The position numbers were made by a program, and so were the translations under genes. Of a DNA stretch of 33,575 nt, positions 3,009-27,953 are shown in pieces. The DNA is taken from assembly GCA_003219465.1 (NCBI GenBank), contig QHOX01000046.1, forward strand, positions 1 to 33,575. Direction: 5' to 3'. How positions within the stretch are numbered: the stretch's first letter is position 1; each line of letters begins with the position of its first letter. Below the pieces are notes generated by a model that was given only the letters and a program-made list of their open reading frames with translations, searched no databases and was not told the DNA's origin. Source of the DNA: Verrucomicrobiota bacterium (GTDB taxonomy: Bacteria; Verrucomicrobiota; Verrucomicrobiia; Chthoniobacterales; UBA10450).

Positions 3009-4233
3009 TGGACATCGCGCTTTTTGAACCGGCGGCGCCATCAGGCGTCGCGGGGGTTTTCGGCGCGTACGGTTGCGGCGCAATTTTCGATCCCGGCGCA
3101 AGCGCAAGCTGGCCGGTGACAACCACCGTTTCGTCGGGTTTGACACCGCTCTCAATAACGGTCAGGTCCCCGTGCTGGCGTTGCCCAGGCGTGACGGGAC
3201 GAAGCTCGACCGTATTGTCCGCTTTCACCACGAAAACGAACGGCCCGCTCTGGCTAACTTGCACAGCCTGCGACGGCACAAGCGTAGCATCCTTCAGCGT
3301 GTCCAGAATAAAACGCACACGGACAAACTCGGATGGCCACAGCGCACGATCGGGATTCGGCATGACCCCGCGCGCTTTCACGGTTCCCGAGCCGGGCTGA
3401 ACTGCGTTGTCGATGAAATACAAATCACCCGTTCGCGGCGTGATCGAGCCATCCGCGAGGTACGTTTCGACTTTTACGTTTGGGCCGCCCAGATATTTTC
3501 GCACTAGCGGAAGATCGTTCTCCGCCACGGTGAAATCGGTGTAAATCGGATCCAATCCCTGGATCGTTACAAGAGCCCCAGTGGAAGGTCCAACCAAGTT
3601 GCCGACGTCGACATTGCGCAGGCCGATTCGTCCAATGATCGGCGATTTGATGAAGCAATAGTCGTAGTTCACCTGAGCAGCTTCGGTCGCTGCCTGCGAC
3701 TTTTGCGCGTTCGCCAAAGCAATGTCGTAGTCCTGTTGCGCAATGACTTTTCTCGCACGCAAGTCCTCTTGTCGCTTCAGCGTCACTTGATCTAACGCGG
3801 CCTGCGCCTTCGCCTGATCGAGAGCGGCCTTATACGGCCGAGGATCGATTGTGAAAAGCAGATCGCCTTTCTTCACGTCGGAGCCATCCTGGAAATGGCG
3901 CTCCATGATCACACCACTTACCTGCGCCTGCACCTGCACCGTCTCGTACGCTGCACATGTGCCGATTTCATCCAGATAAAGCGGCACGTCCTTTGTGATT
4001 ACCTTGGCGACGGTCGCCGGACGGGGAGCAGGCTGAGTAGCTGTAACCTCGGTGGCTCTGTGTTGAAGAATGCGGTAAGTGACGAAGCCTGCCAGCAGGA
4101 TGAAAAGTAAGTACGCCCATTTGGGAATTCTCTGATTCGCAGTACGCGCCCGCTTCGCTTGTGGCTGAGGCGACCTGTGAGAAGAGCCGTGATTCAACGT
4201 TTTAAAGTCGCTCAATTCTGTGTGAAGTTTCAT
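3001..4233 (-). CDS. RND efflux periplasmic adaptor / membrane fusion protein (HlyD/AcrA family)
   Basis: ORF 3001..4284. Start chosen as MKLHTELSDF at 4233 because it forms an ATGA overlap with the marR stop. Contains VQVQAQVSGVIMERHFQDGSDVKKGDLLFTIDPRPY and the typical hairpin and barrel regions. Confidence 0.92.
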   Translation of the reverse strand: MKLHTELSDFKTLNHGSSHRSPQPQAKRARTANQRIPKWAYLLFILLAGFVTYRILQHRATEVTATQPAPRPATVAKVITKDVPLYLDEIGTCAAYETVQVQAQVSGVIMERHFQDGSDVKKGDLLFTIDPRPYKAALDQAKAQAALDQVTLKRQEDLRARKVIAQQDYDIALANAQKSQAATEAAQVNYDYCFIKSPIIGRIGLRNVDVGNLVGPSTGALVTIQGLDPIYTDFTVAENDLPLVRKYLGGPNVKVETYLADGSITPRTGDLYFIDNAVQPGSGTVKARGVMPNPDRALWPSEFVRVRFILDTLKDATLVPSQAVQVSQSGPFVFVVKADNTVELRPVTPGQRQHGDLTVIESGVKPDETVVVTGQLALAPGSKIAPQPYAPKTPATPDGAAGSKSAMSNE

Positions 4234-4793
4234 TTGAACCCTCCGACACGCCGCGAAATTGCGCCCTTTCTTGCAATCGAACATCGCTGTTTGGTGTGGC
4301 CGTTGCGATCGACGGAATCGTGAGACGGCCGGCTGCGCGGTGTGGATTGACGTCGATCGCTTTTCTCGGCCCGCTCTTGAATGAGCCCCAGCACTTGCAT
4401 GCAGGTCTCAACATCGCCGCTCGGAATCCCCGCTAACAGTTCATGCCGTAGTTTCGCTGCGGTGGCGCTGATCTGCGCGATTACCCGCTGGGCACGCCGG
4501 CCCAGCAACACCATTTTACAACGACGGTCATGCAGCGAGGTCTTTCGTATGATCCAGGATTCCCTTTCCAGCCGATGAATCAAATTCACGACAGTCGGTT
4601 CCTCAACCCCCAGCCGCGCGGCAATTTCCGCTTGGGTAAGCGCATCTCCGGCCAGCGACAGATGCATTAACGTGCGCCATTTGGCCTGGCTCAGTCCCAT
4701 CGGCTTGAGACGCTCATCGAGTTTTTGCCGCCATGCACGCGCCGTGCCGTGGACCAACTGGCCAAACATTTCAGTGGAGTCGCCGCTGGACAT
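4230..4793 (-). CDS. MarR family transcriptional regulator
   Basis: GLSQAKWRTLMHLSLAGDALTQAEIAARLGVEEPTVVNLIHRLERESWIIRKTSLHDRRCKMVLL is a MarR winged helix. Start likely MSSGDST at 4793, downstream of the palindrome; the ORF track extends to a TTG at 4829. Confidence 0.88.
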   Translation of the reverse strand: MSSGDSTEMFGQLVHGTARAWRQKLDERLKPMGLSQAKWRTLMHLSLAGDALTQAEIAARLGVEEPTVVNLIHRLERESWIIRKTSLHDRRCKMVLLGRRAQRVIAQISATAAKLRHELLAGIPSGDVETCMQVLGLIQERAEKSDRRQSTPRSRPSHDSVDRNGHTKQRCSIARKGAISRRVGGFK

Positions 4794-4809
4794 AACACTC
4801 CAGATTAAA

Positions 4810-4829
4810 TTAGTTAGTATGCTAACCAA
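4810..4829. promoter_or_regulatory. Putative MarR operator (palindrome TTAGTTAG-TATG-CTAACCAA)
   Basis: Near-perfect 20-bp palindrome (7/8 arm identity, GTTAG/CTAAC core) immediately 5' of the likely marR start. Confidence 0.6.
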
Positions 4830-4847
4830 TTCTAATCTACGAGTTTG

Positions 4848-6302
4848 TCAATCCTCGTTCGGGGGCGCCACCTTGAAGAGAACCATCTCGCGTTTGCTGT
4901 AATCTCGCACGCGGGCAATCGGCCGCGCGCGCAGCGGCGCCCATTTTCGCGCCGCTGATGCCTCCGCTTCATTCTCATGTCGAACGAGAAAGTAACGCAC
5001 GTTCCCTGGCAGCTTCTTCACGTAGCTCACGTATTTCACCGGCGCTTTCACATAAAAAAAGACTGGCTGATAATCCGGATTCACTGCGTAGAGCGTCTCG
5101 TTCGGGGGCACCAGCGCATTGATTTCCGCGGCGGCCTTTTTTACCTGCTGCTTGTTTCTTAAGACGATCGCCGTAATCGGATACCCGATCGCCCCAATCA
5201 CAAGCCCCAGCCCAATGAACGCCGCCACAAGCTTGGCCCAAACTCGTTCGTCTTTTATCCAGCGTCGCGGGTATTGGAATGCGTTGCCGGCGCAGATCGT
5301 CCCCATCAGCCACGATGCTGGAACTATTGCAGGGATGCTGTATCGGGCGACCGCGCCAGGGACGAGATTGACCGCCAAAAACGGTACTGCAGTTCCCCAG
5401 GACAACGCGCGCGCCAGCCGCTGTTGGCCTTGCTCCTGCAATTTTGAAAATCGTGCAAGCGGAAACAGGAGAACCCATGGCAGAAAGTAGATCAGACCGC
5501 GGGGGACATTTTGGATCCAACTAAAGAATTTGAAATCGATGCCCTTCAACCGTCCGGTGTACTGACCCGACCACTTGTCGATCGCAACCTGCGACGTCGT
5601 GCTGTGAACGAATGGAATTGCCCACGCTGCTGCGATCCCAAGCATGACGACGATCGCGACAAAATGTGCCGGATGAACAAGAAGCCGCCACTTTTTCCAA
5701 TAGGCCAGAACGGCTATCACAACCCCGTAGAAAAATACGAGATGTGTCGGCCCTTTCGCCAGCAGACCAAGCCCGAGAAAAACAGATGGCGGAAGCCATA
5801 TGAGCCACGGAGATTTCCTTTGAAGGAAGAAGCTCAGCCAAAAAATAATCGCCAGACCGCAAAGAGACACATACAGCGCTTCGATTTCAATTAGCCGGCC
5901 TTTTTCGATGATACCGATGTTCGTCAGCCAGATCATAGCCGCGATGATCGATCCTCTCGCGCCGAGGCTGGCAGAGGCGACGGTGACGAAGGCAATGGCT
6001 ACGGCAAGTACGGAAAGGGCCGACGGTAGCCGCGCTGTCCATTCGTTGCGCACCCCAAAGATTTTGAAAGATGCCGCTATCAGCCAGTTCACCAGCGGCG
6101 GCTTGCGGTAATATGGGTTACTACCCACTTGCGGGACGATGTAGTTCCCCGTCTCAAGCATCCGAACAGCCGGCAAAATCCGGCGTCCCTCTTCTCCCTT
6201 GATGGCGATCGAGCCAAGCGCAGGTAAATAGATAACGGCCCACACGAGCACCACCGTAGCGACAGCTCGAAGCCGCGACTTGACTAGATCTTCAATACTC
6301 AA
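4848..6302 (-). CDS. ArnT/PMT-family membrane glycosyltransferase
   Basis: MEDLVKSRLRA-type N-terminus, then EEGRRILPAVRMLETGNYIVPQVGSNPYYRKPPLVNWLIAASFKIFGVRNEWTARLPSAL; multiple TM segments typical of ArnT/PMT_2 proteins. Confidence 0.85.
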   Translation of the reverse strand: MSIEDLVKSRLRAVATVVLVWAVIYLPALGSIAIKGEEGRRILPAVRMLETGNYIVPQVGSNPYYRKPPLVNWLIAASFKIFGVRNEWTARLPSALSVLAVAIAFVTVASASLGARGSIIAAMIWLTNIGIIEKGRLIEIEALYVSLCGLAIIFWLSFFLQRKSPWLIWLPPSVFLGLGLLAKGPTHLVFFYGVVIAVLAYWKKWRLLVHPAHFVAIVVMLGIAAAWAIPFVHSTTSQVAIDKWSGQYTGRLKGIDFKFFSWIQNVPRGLIYFLPWVLLFPLARFSKLQEQGQQRLARALSWGTAVPFLAVNLVPGAVARYSIPAIVPASWLMGTICAGNAFQYPRRWIKDERVWAKLVAAFIGLGLVIGAIGYPITAIVLRNKQQVKKAAAEINALVPPNETLYAVNPDYQPVFFYVKAPVKYVSYVKKLPGNVRYFLVRHENEAEASAARKWAPLRARPIARVRDYSKREMVLFKVAPPNED

Positions 6303-9998: not shown

Positions 9999-10090
9999 GT
10001 CATTCCAAGCGAAGTCGAGGAATCCCGTTGCAAAACCGAAATCTGATTTCACGGGATCCTTCGACTCCGCTTCGCTCCGCCCAGGATGAC
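9999..10090. repeat. REP/BIME-like inverted-arm element, family 1 copy A
   Basis: Left arm gtcattccaagcgaagtcgaggaatcccgt and right arm acgggatccttcgactccgcttcgctccgcccaggatgac are imperfect reverse complements. Related to copies at 17907 and 19638. Confidence 0.8.
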
Positions 10091-17906: not shown

Positions 17907-17992
17907 TGTCATCTGGAGCGGAGCGGAGGCGAGGGCCTGGCGGCTTAAGCTCAAGTAATGTATCGGGATTCCTCGACTTCGCTCGGAACGAC
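17907..17992. repeat. REP/BIME-like inverted-arm element, family 1 copy B
   Basis: tgtcatctggagcggagcgg... paired with gggattcctcgacttcgctcggaacgac (reverse complement gtcgttccgagcgaagtcgaggaatccc). Starts 2-3 nt after the aminotransferase stop. Confidence 0.75.
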
Positions 17993-18007: not shown

Positions 18008-19633
18008 ATGCCTGGCCATTTCGCCCTCATTCTACACGCTCATCTCCCGTTCGTTCGTCATCCGGAGCACGAGCATTTCGTCGAGGAGGAGTGGTTTTTT
18101 GAGGCGATCACCGAGACGTACATCCCGTTGCTGCGCGCGATGCAGCGACTCGTCGACGATTTTGTGCCGTTCAAACTCACGATGTCGATTACGCCGACGC
18201 TCTGCGCGATGCTTCAAGATCAACTGTTACGCGAGCGTTACCTCCGACACCTCGAGCTTTTGATCGACCTTGCTACACGCGAACGAAAGCGAAATTGCAA
18301 ACATCCTCAGCTACGCGAGTTGGCTGAGTTTTACATTGGTGTGTTTTCAGAAGCTCGCCGCCTCTTTGTCGATGAATGGAAATGCGATCTGCTATCGGTG
18401 GTACGTGAGCTGCGACAAACGGGCGCGCTAGAAATCATCGCCAGCGCGGCAACACATGGCTTGCTGCCGGTCCTTCAGCAGCAATCGCGTCACACAGCGC
18501 GCGCGCAGGTCTTGATCGGCCGCGACGCCTATGTCGAATTTTTCGGCGCAGAGCCCGATGGATTCTGGCTACCCGAGTGCGGTTACGCTCCTGGTCTGGA
18601 ATGGATTCTACAGGAAGCGAATCTTCGCTGGTTCGTTCTCGACGCACACGGATTGCTCTTTGGAGCGCCGCGCCCCCGCCGCTCTATTTATGCTCCCTGT
18701 TATACACCAGGGGGGCCGGCGGCCTTCGCACGCGATCCCGACGTCAGCCGCCAAGTCTGGAGTGCGCACGAAGGCTATCCCGGCGATCCAGCTTACCGGG
18801 AATTTTATCGAGACATCGGTTTCGATCTGCCGATGGAGCATTTGGGATCGATCGCGCGTGGAACCAGGAAATTTTCCGGCGTTAAATACCATCGGATCAC
18901 CGGACGCGGCGATGAAAAACAGTTGTATGACCGAACGGCAGCCGAAAATGCGGCAGCACACCATGCAATTCACTTTTTGCAACTCTGCCAGCAGCAGATT
19001 CGCGAAATCGGCGAAGTCGGGTTCGACCCGATCATTGTCGCGCCGTTCGATGCGGAATTGTTTGGTCACTGGTGGTTCGAAGGACCAATTTTCCTGGAAC
19101 AATTGGTTCGCCAGGCAGCAAACGAACAAGATTTCCCGCTGACAACCCCGAGTGAATATCTGGCCGCGCATCCAACGCAACAAATCGTTGAGCCCGCTGC
19201 TTCCACGTGGGGTGAGAACGGGCATCTCGCCGTCTGGCTCGATCCGAGTAATGCCTGGATTTATCCGCAACTGCAATCTGCGACGGACCGCATGACTCAG
19301 CTCGCGCGCCAGCACACCAACACCGTTGTAGGGCAACCGCTTCGGTTGCCGGGCGCGGGATTGTCAGGCGAAGGGCCTGCCCTACAATTCGCTGATCGCG
19401 TACTAAAACAACTCGCCCGCGAGCTTTTGCTGGCACAATCAAGTGACTGGGCATTTCTAATGAAAACCGGGACTGCGCGCGAATACGCCACTAAACGCAC
19501 GATCGATCACCTTGCTCGCTTCAACCGTCTGCACGATCAGTTTGTCACAAATAATCTCGATGAAGAATTTCTGCGCGACTGCGAATGGCAGGACAACATT
19601 TTTCCGAACGTGAACTGGCGCTATTATGCTTAG
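18008..19633 (+). CDS. Glycoside hydrolase family 57 / DUF1957 protein (probable 1,4-alpha-glucan branching enzyme)
   Basis: GHFALILHAHLPFVRHPEHEHFVEEEWFFEAITETYIPLLRAM, GFWLPECGYAPGLE, FDAELFGHWWFEGPIFLEQL, ARELLLAQSSDWAFLMKTGTAREYATKRTIDHLARF. Confidence 0.9.
   Translation: MPGHFALILHAHLPFVRHPEHEHFVEEEWFFEAITETYIPLLRAMQRLVDDFVPFKLTMSITPTLCAMLQDQLLRERYLRHLELLIDLATRERKRNCKHPQLRELAEFYIGVFSEARRLFVDEWKCDLLSVVRELRQTGALEIIASAATHGLLPVLQQQSRHTARAQVLIGRDAYVEFFGAEPDGFWLPECGYAPGLEWILQEANLRWFVLDAHGLLFGAPRPRRSIYAPCYTPGGPAAFARDPDVSRQVWSAHEGYPGDPAYREFYRDIGFDLPMEHLGSIARGTRKFSGVKYHRITGRGDEKQLYDRTAAENAAAHHAIHFLQLCQQQIREIGEVGFDPIIVAPFDAELFGHWWFEGPIFLEQLVRQAANEQDFPLTTPSEYLAAHPTQQIVEPAASTWGENGHLAVWLDPSNAWIYPQLQSATDRMTQLARQHTNTVVGQPLRLPGAGLSGEGPALQFADRVLKQLARELLLAQSSDWAFLMKTGTAREYATKRTIDHLARFNRLHDQFVTNNLDEEFLRDCEWQDNIFPNVNWRYYA
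19326..19387. repeat. TGTAG-ended double-hairpin element, family 2 copy E, inside the GH57 coding sequence
   Basis: Terminal stem ttgtaggg/ccctacaa, hairpin ggcaaccg-ctt-cggttgcc, hairpin caggc-gaagg-gcctg. Confidence 0.8.
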
Positions 19634-19637
19634 GTTC

Positions 19638-19734
19638 TGTCATTCCGCGCGAAGTCGAGGAATCTCTCGATATTGCTGGCAGAGCACGCCGCATTTAAAG
19701 AGCTAGAGATGTCTCGACTTCGCTCGACATGACA
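19638..19734. repeat. REP/BIME-like inverted-arm element, family 1 copy C
   Basis: tgtcattccgcgcgaagtcgaggaatctct vs reverse complement of agagatgtctcgacttcgctcgacatgaca: 25/30 identical. Confidence 0.82.
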
Positions 19735-22676: not shown

Positions 22677-22725
22677 GATTTGTGACCGCGGATTACGCGG
22701 ATGATGATTGATCAGGCTCCCAGGG

Positions 22726-24393
22726 ATGTCTGCCGTTCTCACACTATTGCGAATTAGAAATCTTGCGCTCGTCGAAGAGCTCGAGTGGCAGTTGGAGCCG
22801 GGGTTTGTCGCGGTCACAGGAGAAACAGGCGCGGGGAAATCAATCATTATTGGCGCCCTGCAACTTTTGCTGGGTGAGCGGGCGGACAAATCCCTGATTC
22901 GCACGGGAGCCGATCTTTGCACGGTCGAAGCAGTTTTTACCGGCACAGACGTGCGTAAGCTCAATCCGCAACTTGCCGAAGCGGGCATAGAACTATGCGA
23001 AAACGATTTGATCCTGAAACGGACGCTCTCCTCGAGCGGAACGAATCGGCAGTTCATCAACGGGTCGCCGACGACACTGTCGGTGTTGAAAAATCTTGGC
23101 GATGAACTCGTGGATCTTCATGGTCCTCACGATCACCAGTCGTTGCTCTCGCCGGAGACGCAATTGAGATTGCTCGATTCCTTCGCGCGCGCCGAACAAC
23201 AGCTCGAGGAATATCGAACGCATTATCGGCACTTGCAGACATTGTTCGCGGAACATGCCGCGCTCGACACCGCGGAGACCGCGCGCGAGCAGGAGATGGA
23301 TTTGCTTCGGCACCAAACCATCGAGATCAAATCGGCGAATCTCGTCGCGAGCGAAGAAGAAGAAATCGAGAAACGCTACAAGCTCGCCAGCAACAGCAAA
23401 CGGCTGATTGAGCTTGCCAGCGGGATCGCGAACAGACTTTCCGAGGCAGACGATTCCGTTCTCGCCCAGCTCGCGGAAACGCAACGGCTGCTTCGAGAAT
23501 TGGAAAAGATCGACAGCTCGACCGCACAATTCTCGTCGGCGCACGCCGCTGCCGTGGTCGAGCTTTCCGAAATCGCGCGCACTCTGTCGGCTTACGCCGA
23601 GAAACTCGATCTCGATCCGGAACAACTCGCCGCACTTGAACAACGCGTTTCGCTGTTCGAAACGTTGAAGCGCAAATACGGCGGTTCAATTGCCGACGTG
23701 ATCGTGTTCGGTGAACGCGCCGCCGAGCGGATGCGGAAGATTGAAGGGCGGGACGCAGAGTTGGAGCGACTCACCAAAGACATCGAGAATGTTCGCGCGC
23801 AAATGAACCGCGCCGGCGAAGCGCTGCGCAAATCGCGCCTAAAAGTTGCGCCGAAACTTTCCGAGAATATTCGGCGAAATTTGCGCGACCTTGGGTTTCG
23901 TCAGTCAGAATTCGAAGCAAACCTCAGCGCGCTCGACGAGCCTCGCCCGAACGGATTTGATTCGGTAGAATTACTGTTCTCGCCAAATCCGGGCGAACCG
24001 TTGAAACCGCTTCGCGCGATCGCATCGAGCGGCGAAATTTCACGGCTGATGCTCGCGATCAAATCCGCGCTGGCTGAGCATGACGCGATTCCGTTGCTCG
24101 TGTTCGATGAGATCGACACGAACGTCGGCGGCGAGATCGCTCACGCCGTTGGTGCCAAGATGCAAACGTTAGGGCGTGATCATCAGGTGATCTGCATCAC
24201 GCATTTGCCGCAAGTCGCCGCCACCGCTTCGTCGCATTTTGTTGTGACAAAGGACGTGTCGCGTGGCCGCACGTTTTCCAATCTGCACGCAGTCACGGGC
24301 AAATCCCGCCAGGAAGAAATCGCGCGAATGCTTGGCGGCAAAAGCGATTCGGCGCTTAAGCTCGCAGCGAGCTTACTGAAAGAGAGGCCCTAA
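22726..24393 (+). CDS. recN: DNA repair protein RecN
   Basis: LTLLRIRNLALVEELEWQLEPGFVAVTGETGAGKSIIIGALQLLLGERAD; SSGEISRLMLAIKSALAEHDAIPLLVFDEIDTNVGGEIAHAVG. Start MSAVL at 22726 preferred to 22708. Confidence 0.94.
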   Translation: MSAVLTLLRIRNLALVEELEWQLEPGFVAVTGETGAGKSIIIGALQLLLGERADKSLIRTGADLCTVEAVFTGTDVRKLNPQLAEAGIELCENDLILKRTLSSSGTNRQFINGSPTTLSVLKNLGDELVDLHGPHDHQSLLSPETQLRLLDSFARAEQQLEEYRTHYRHLQTLFAEHAALDTAETAREQEMDLLRHQTIEIKSANLVASEEEEIEKRYKLASNSKRLIELASGIANRLSEADDSVLAQLAETQRLLRELEKIDSSTAQFSSAHAAAVVELSEIARTLSAYAEKLDLDPEQLAALEQRVSLFETLKRKYGGSIADVIVFGERAAERMRKIEGRDAELERLTKDIENVRAQMNRAGEALRKSRLKVAPKLSENIRRNLRDLGFRQSEFEANLSALDEPRPNGFDSVELLFSPNPGEPLKPLRAIASSGEISRLMLAIKSALAEHDAIPLLVFDEIDTNVGGEIAHAVGAKMQTLGRDHQVICITHLPQVAATASSHFVVTKDVSRGRTFSNLHAVTGKSRQEEIARMLGGKSDSALKLAASLLKERP

Positions 24394-24409: not shown

Positions 24410-24463
24410 TGTAGCCGCGTCCCTGTGGGACGCGTGCGTGTCGCCCGCAGGGCGACGGCTACA
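24410..24463. repeat. TGTAG-ended double-hairpin element, family 2 copy D
   Basis: Terminal stem tgtagccg/cggctaca, hairpin cgcgtccc-tgt-gggacgcg, hairpin gtcgccc-gca-gggcgac. Confidence 0.82.
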
Positions 24464-24504: not shown

Positions 24505-25095
24505 TTATTTCATCACCGGACCGAGGGGTAGAATGACTTTGCCGTAGATTTCGTTGAGCACCTGCGCAAGGCCGGCGTAAATCGCGGAGAAGCCGCAGAA
24601 AATTCCTTCGTAGCCGGTAAACTGTTTGAAACCAGGACCTGCGCTAATGAAATCCCCAATGGCGAGGAGAAAGAAAAGAATCGTTAGCGAACCAAAAACG
24701 ACCTGCCCGGCAACGTGCAATCGCAGCGTGCCAATAAACATCACGGCGGTGAACAAACCCCACATGAAAAAATAAGCTACCATGGCAGTGGCGTTGGAAG
24801 CGGTGGCCCATCCTAACTTCGGCAGAACAATCAGCGCGACGAGCGAGAACCAGAACAAGCCGTACGAAAGAAAGGCAGTGGTGGCGAAAGTGTTGCCTTT
24901 CCGCCATTCCATAATCCCAGCCACAATTTGAGCCGCGCCGCCGTAGCAGATTCCCATCGCCAGAATCATGCTGTTAAGTTCGTAGAACCCGGCGTTGTGA
25001 AGGTTAAGCAATACGGTGGTCATGCCGAAGCCCAGCAGCCCAAGGGGCGCCGGATTCGCTGTCGTATCCTTGAGGTGAGTAGTGGATTCGTTCAT
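24505..25095 (-). CDS. GPR1/FUN34/YaaH (SatP) family acetate transporter-like protein
   Basis: [71 protein letters not shown]. Start MNESTTH at 25095 preferred. Confidence 0.9.
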
Positions 25096-25326
25096 GGCGA
25101 CGCCAGTGTGCCTAAAGAAAGAGCGACAATGCAAGAAGGAATGGCTTAACCATCCTAAATCGTTGACTCCCTTGACGTGTCAGAACCCTTGCATTTGTCG
25201 CCTCTCCCGGTTCAGGGCGAGGTGCCCGGTGTTCCACGCCCTACTCACTGGCACTTGGCCCGGTCACGTTCGTACGATTTCGCTTGTCGCCGCACCTCCG
25301 CTGAAATTATGGTCAAAGTTTCGTAT

Positions 25327-27091: not shown

Positions 27092-27940
27092 CTAGCGGCC
27101 GATAATCGAAATTGATCCGGCGCCGGCAAGATTGGCAATCGCATCCGCTTGCAAAAACAAGGTTTTGCCTGCTTCAATGGCAATTACCCGAAGTCCTGCT
27201 TCCGTCGCTACGCGAATTGTTTCAACGCCGATTATGGGCACGTCGAAGCGCATGTCCTGATTTGGCTTGGCGACCTTGACCATGACTGCACCCTCACGTG
27301 CAAGTGCGCCCCCTCGGCTGATGGCCTCGTTTGTTCCTTCCAACGCTTCTACGGCTACAATTGTTCCATTCTTGACAATCACAGTTTGGCCGATGTCGAG
27401 TCGGGCAATTTCCTTGGCAATATTCCAACCGAGCTCGACGTCGTACTCTTCACGAGATGATAATTTCGGTCCCGCAATTAGTCCCAGTTTGGCAATCGAT
27501 TGTTCGAGAAATGTTGTGGCTGGCAGGAGATCGACTTCGATCTTCGCCAGTTCATCTGCGAGCGCCGCGAAAATGGATTCAGCGTTGCGTTGTTTAAGTT
27601 TTCCCAGCAACATCACCGCCTTCAAATCCGGCCGCAGATCGTAAAGGTTTTTAGGCGCGATTTGTCCGGCCATGATCGCGTGATGAATATCCTGCTCGCG
27701 AAGAAATTTCAGGAGCCGCCCGAGTTGTCCAACACGCATCCACTCGACCACATCGATATGTTGCCCGAGCACCGGATCGGTCTCGCCGGTGAATGCGGCA
27801 GCGACGATCTTTTTAACGCCGGCTTTCCGCGCTGCATCGGCCACCAGTAGAGGATAGACGCCGTTGCCGGCAATGATCCCCAGGGCGTGTAGCGGTGCTT
27901 GTGCCAAGCACCGAATTTGAAATAGACAGGCGCCTGACAC
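27092..27940 (-). CDS. lpxI: UDP-2,3-diacylglucosamine pyrophosphatase LpxI-like (DUF1009)
   Basis: LGIIAGNGVYPLLVADAARKAGVKKIVAAAF, AIMAGQIAPKNLYDLRPD, GAVMVKVAKPNQDMRFDVPIIGVETI. Annotated GTG start lies within a repeat; true start uncertain. Confidence 0.88.
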   Translation of the reverse strand: MSGACLFQIRCLAQAPLHALGIIAGNGVYPLLVADAARKAGVKKIVAAAFTGETDPVLGQHIDVVEWMRVGQLGRLLKFLREQDIHHAIMAGQIAPKNLYDLRPDLKAVMLLGKLKQRNAESIFAALADELAKIEVDLLPATTFLEQSIAKLGLIAGPKLSSREEYDVELGWNIAKEIARLDIGQTVIVKNGTIVAVEALEGTNEAISRGGALAREGAVMVKVAKPNQDMRFDVPIIGVETIRVATEAGLRVIAIEAGKTLFLQADAIANLAGAGSISIIGR

Positions 27941-27953
27941 AAGCGCCTCTACA
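27888..27953. repeat. TGTAG-ended double-hairpin element, family 2 copy F (atpC-lpxI junction)
   Basis: tgtag..ctaca ends, hairpin cggtgctt-gtgcc-aagcaccg, hairpin aggcgc-ctgacacaa-gcgcct. Confidence 0.78.

Follow-up and report, generated by a model that had tools for sequence, protein, structure and literature searches.

A GTAG-type REPIN inserted in frame in a GH57 gene of a probably Udaeobacter-like bacterium, in a loop that also carries inserts in related species

Palindromic repeats of the GTAG REP super-family are known from within protein-coding genes, where Di Nocera et al. 2013 found them mostly as dimers that code for 20-30 residues and most abundantly in the verrucomicrobium Opitutus terrae (PMC3733652). 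DNA-repair genes and tRNA-related genes are among the named hosts, REPs occupy about the same recB site in two Xanthomonas species, and it has been suggested that flexible loops may tolerate intragenic REPs (PMC3733652). In the REPtron layout a RAYT gene is bordered by inverted REPs (PMC8266576). Of the Rickettsia palindromic elements (RPE), RPE-4/6 of R. conorii have been classed in the CGTC super-family (PMC3733652). Here we analyze a 62-nt element in a 33,575-nt stretch of DNA (the window; contig C288 of a 4.19 Mb assembly of 413 contigs that is 88.8% complete). Its host is most likely an Udaeobacter-like verrucomicrobium from soil. The element is a REPIN, that is, a REP/inverted-REP doublet tagged GTAG, inserted in frame in a GH57 ORF (Table 1).

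Table 1 Features of the window discussed in the text.
Feature	Position	Strand	Basis or context
GTAG-type REPIN (REP / inverted REP doublet), in frame	19326..19387	+	sequence, BLAST copies, folding, empty homologous sites
Left REP: GTAG tag + perfect 8-bp hairpin GGCAACCG-CTT-CGGTTGCC	19328..19350	+	REP scan
Right REP, inverted: GTAG tag + imperfect hairpin GGCAGGC..GCCTG	19365..19385	-	sequence
GH57 branching-enzyme-type gene, 541 aa, insertion host	18008..19633	+	Pfam domains, solved-structure matches
Second GTAG REP doublet, different subfamily	24411..24462	.	between ORF 22708-24393(+) and ORF 24505-25134(-)
Third GTAG REP doublet, different subfamily	27889..27952	.	overlaps predicted 5' end of ORF 27092-27940(-), start codon uncertain

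The sequence-only reading of the window had placed the element exactly: TTGTAG stands at its start (19326-19331) and CTACAA at its end (19382-19387), and the ORF is intact on both sides and open from end to end, element included. Codons 19325-19387 encode VVGQPLRLPGAGLSGEGPALQ (V440-Q460), so that the roughly 20 extra residues first proposed are 21. The layout is TTGTAG GGCAACCG CTT CGGTTGCC ... CAGGCGAAGGGCCTGCCCTACAA, with tag, hairpin and spacer followed by a second GTAG hairpin in inverted orientation, and the 10-nt terminal arms TTGTAGGGCA/TGCCCTACAA pair perfectly. As expected of a REPIN, an unpaired GTAG lies directly 5' of a short hairpin in the left unit (GTAG + GGCAACCGCTTCGGTTGCC), and two units stand head to head in this copy and in sibling copies. 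Both of the internal hairpins described earlier are present, although the right-hand stem has one mismatch and the right unit is therefore imperfect. As single-stranded DNA the element has a folding energy of -19.1 kcal/mol, whereas its shuffled versions average -10.9 (z = -4.1), and 0 of 200 shuffles matched it. The likeness to Rickettsia elements drawn at the outset is right in kind, given that this is a palindrome inserted in frame within an ORF, but not in family: the tag is GTAG and not the CGTC of RPE-4/6, which places the element with GTAG REP/RAYT systems.

By sequence and fold, the host protein is nearest to AmyC of Thermotoga maritima and to GH57 branching enzymes. Pfam identifies both the catalytic domain (Glyco_hydro_57, residues 6-394, E 8e-37) and the BE_C domain (residues 460-540, E 8.5e-31), and the closest solved structures are 2b5d (AmyC) and the GH57 branching enzymes 5wu7, 3p0b and 3n8t. 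The best fold match, AmyC, was deposited as an alpha-amylase, and the putative substrate specificity is unproven because the two NCBIfam branching-enzyme equivalogs that match the protein both score below cut-off. In an AlphaFold2 model (mean pLDDT 84, pTM 0.87) residues 443-454 of the insert have pLDDT < 50 and lie between helix 418-437 and helix 457-476. Hence, the insert is predicted to be a disordered loop joining two helices of the C-terminal domain, and would lengthen the interhelical loop while leaving the GH57 domain untouched. Another palindromic repeat (TGTCATTCCGCGCGAAGTCGAGGAATC ... TCGACTTCGCTCGACATGACA), more abundant than the element, is found at 19638-19734, directly 3' of the GH57 stop codon, and also at window positions 9999-10032 and 17954-17992 (own-genome matches n = 49).

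The element family occurs at 13 places in its own genome by BLAST, and a near-perfect sibling lies at C171:18288-18342. The own-genome repeat counts rest on BLAST, pattern scans and a 508-kb genome sample, in which a strict scan found 55 single REPs against about 15 with permuted tags. The same scan returned 10 head-to-head doublets of GTAG hairpins, all subfamilies counted, against 0 with permuted tags; this is an undercount, given that the mismatch in the right stem hides the GH57 element of the window from the scan. The loose pattern TGTAG-N-CTACA was not enriched (114 versus 153 in the control) and was left out of the evidence. Two further elements of the window, at 24410 and 27888, had been described as intergenic and of the same design. 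They do have the GTAG-hairpin/inverted architecture in common with the GH57 copy, but their stem sequences differ and assign them to different subfamilies, and only the first lies between ORFs, whereas the second reaches into the predicted 5' end of a minus-strand ORF.

The genome also encodes candidate mobilisers. One gene (L011) scores above the cut-off for the NF047646 REP-associated tyrosine transposase (118.6 versus 80 bits), another is just at it (L013, 80.4 bits) and a third just short of it (L014, 78.0 bits). Inverted GTAG REPs border L011 and L013, which gives them the REPtron layout, and likewise the congener RAYTs L254, L258, L262 and L267. Among the RAYT loci examined, in an own genome that is 89% complete, none had flanking REPs of the exact element subfamily (GTAGGGCAACCG), and the pairing of RAYT and element is therefore drawn at the super-family level.

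The GH57 gene was found in 78 of 83 family genomes, and about 67 of the homologues cover the insertion site. Most of these lack the insert, their flanks being joined by about seven residues between the helices (e.g., ARRHAENCSPLADR), which is the gap that the sequence-only reading had suggested looking for. All 73 distant homologues from other groups are also without it and have linkers of 28-41 residues, against 49 in the window protein. A family doublet is present in the same loop and the same frame in nine other genomes (L031, L032, L033, L034, L035, L042, L091, L099 and L051), of which L051 belongs to another genus. The palindrome is gone in L031 and the peptide is kept. At the same loop, L050 has a half copy consisting of one REP only, and L056 and L061 have inserts of unrelated, non-family sequence, that of L061 giving only one weak half match when searched in its own genome. 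The ten other genomes whose GH57 holds a family insert each contain between 5 and 22 family copies. Presence and absence of the insert require 8 parsimony changes, an approximate figure from a quick protein tree that left out the insert columns. On contig C51 of G057 (L264, L056), about 2.4 kb separate a RAYT-like gene (1134-1403) from the GH57 gene (3810-5450) with its non-family loop insert.

In-frame insertions are not confined to this loop. Four congeners (L062, L091, L097 and L098) have a GTAG doublet of a different subfamily inserted in frame at a helix-helix boundary near residue 158 of GH57; it is common to this four-member clade and visibly eroding, and L091 has both GH57 inserts. A same-family REPIN lies in frame, and in the same reading frame, in a loop of the CarD/RID domain of the own-genome mfd (L023 1501-1569, contig C79). 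Congeners have a medley of other, repeat-like linkers at the mfd site (e.g., STGFQPVGPAGV..., AGVSPASSN...), and L248 has a short empty version. In the congener G078 (contig C25), a pheT-like ORF (L211 943-1758) contains a family copy in frame between the tRNA_bind and B3_4 domains; its frame stops soon after the copy (272 aa), possibly through a frameshift, a contig problem or pseudogene formation. A genus-wide peptide search found most copies in short open frames, and the long-frame matches checked besides GH57 were pheT and L200. The match in L200 is an N-terminal extension, probably due to a misplaced start.

We consider it very probable that a RAYT-type element entered a tolerated GH57 loop that has been decorated repeatedly, on the direct support of the sequence, its copies, empty homologous sites, recurrence, RAYTs and predicted disorder. 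A head-to-head pair of GTAG-tagged REP hairpins would constitute a non-autonomous element such as RAYT transposases (TnpA-REP, Y1 HUH) move, and this one was presumably transposed in that way. A copy would have inserted into the loop that joins two helices in the C-terminal domain of GH57. Its length and frame would have kept the gene open, the frame (GTA GGG CAA...) avoiding the TAG stop in the tag, so that selection would have tolerated a disordered surface loop without an essential role. The open frame suggests that the insert is translated, and it is presumably neutral. Within the Udaeobacter-like family the same loop would have been decorated more than once, with copies later eroding as palindromes while the peptide stays. 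The central claim of the sequence-only reading, a dispersed palindromic element inserted in frame, thus stands on the empty homologous sites, the other copies and the loop position; neither the same residues in repeat-free homologues nor an absence of further copies was seen.

That the palindrome arose by chance in an ordinary linker, with no repeat involved, can practically be dismissed. The linker is indeed variable, and nothing else favors this explanation, which is refuted by the 13 genome copies and conflicts with the folding (z = -4.1) and the empty homologous sites. The earlier suggestion of a domesticated protein segment, in which the REPIN-encoded loop gained a useful role (e.g., in substrate or partner binding) and the peptide is under selection, is not borne out and appears improbable. 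It would agree with the in-frame state throughout three-member clades (the window protein, Q, with L034 and L031; L033, L035 and L099) and with the peptide that L031 retains although the palindrome is gone. The peptide pattern VGQPLRLP...PALQ also recurs, but this is simply the translation of the DNA family in that frame, in mfd and pheT as well. Furthermore, the insert is predicted to be disordered (AlphaFold2), its presence is patchy, with many sister species lacking it (the 8 parsimony changes), and its pN is double the level found outside it (0.25 against about 0.10-0.12 over most of the gene); no sign of a conserved role was seen.

A further alternative is about the insert's history and does not conflict with its REPIN identity: a single ancestral insertion in the genus, whose patchiness was produced by repeated loss or by short-tract recombination between species and not by several landings. 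We give this real weight but lean against it. The nine same-genus doublets, the window's included, have a common junction and frame; L032, L034 and L042 have a central loop in common (NETS/KETS/NETP) and are closer to each other than to other genomic copies; and the flank just upstream in L042 (15 codons) is more like L032/L099 than like its sister species. However, the doublet in a different genus (L051), the half element of L050, from a third genus, and the non-family inserts (L056 and L061) are separate events there, and many precise losses are unlikely. Synonymous divergence between carriers is about 0.6 along GH57 but 0.32 in the insert (a rough estimate from 21 codons), that is, about half of the gene's, which makes most copies look younger than the species split, or homogenised. 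It is 0.12-0.39 in pairs without L031, and the L031 insert has ordinary synonymous divergence; we read this as a probably old copy in L031, with the copies of other carriers being younger, replaced or homogenised. The low values may also reflect constraint on the arms at the nucleotide level, or recombination of short tracts between species, the latter hinted at by the L042 flank. Non-synonymous divergence (pN) in the insert compares with 0.04-0.12 in most of the gene, and the 19 codons just upstream of the insert are also fast (0.28).

Repeated insertion suggests a broader, tentative picture. The GH57 helix-helix loop and the Mfd RID-domain loop could be recurrent landing sites at which palindromic elements enter, erode and get replaced across species, a possibility to which we assign slightly less than even weight. 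That unrelated elements, or elements of different age, cycle through these loops at one protein position is conceivable to a similar, not quite even, degree. If true, mobile palindromes would continually supply particular loops with new disordered peptide segments. One enzyme gene in dozens of related soil bacteria provides a natural series of empty sites, fresh, half and eroded copies and second insertions, which allows a test of whether intragenic mobile palindromes serve protein evolution as raw material or are carried along neutrally, and of whether their landing is targeted.

The GH57 case fits the description of Di Nocera et al. in every feature tested: as in the GTAG REP super-family, there is a GTAG tag, a hairpin, head-to-head dimers, RAYTs with flanking REPs and in-ORF dimers of 20-30 aa (PMC3733652). 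It differs from the cases described there in its other verrucomicrobial lineage, its GH57 host and the refilling of one loop across species, also by different elements. Apart from recB of two Xanthomonas species, we did not find one loop refilled repeatedly across a genus in that paper (PMC3733652), and our literature search found no paper on palindromic repeats in Udaeobacter. REPIN/BIME systems with RAYTs have the same combination of REP and inverted REP, the GTAG motif and RAYT-like Y1 transposase genes flanked by inverted REPs (PMC8266576), whereas the GH57 copy is intragenic instead of extragenic and no exact-subfamily RAYT was present among the loci examined. Rickettsia palindromic elements are likewise mobile palindromic repeats that lie in frame in protein genes and add a peptide, but their lineage is unrelated and RPE-4/6 are CGTC-tagged (PMC3733652), with no GTAG/RAYT link. 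Hence, the kind of event is known, and the notable part is the recurrently decorated GH57 linker in related species.
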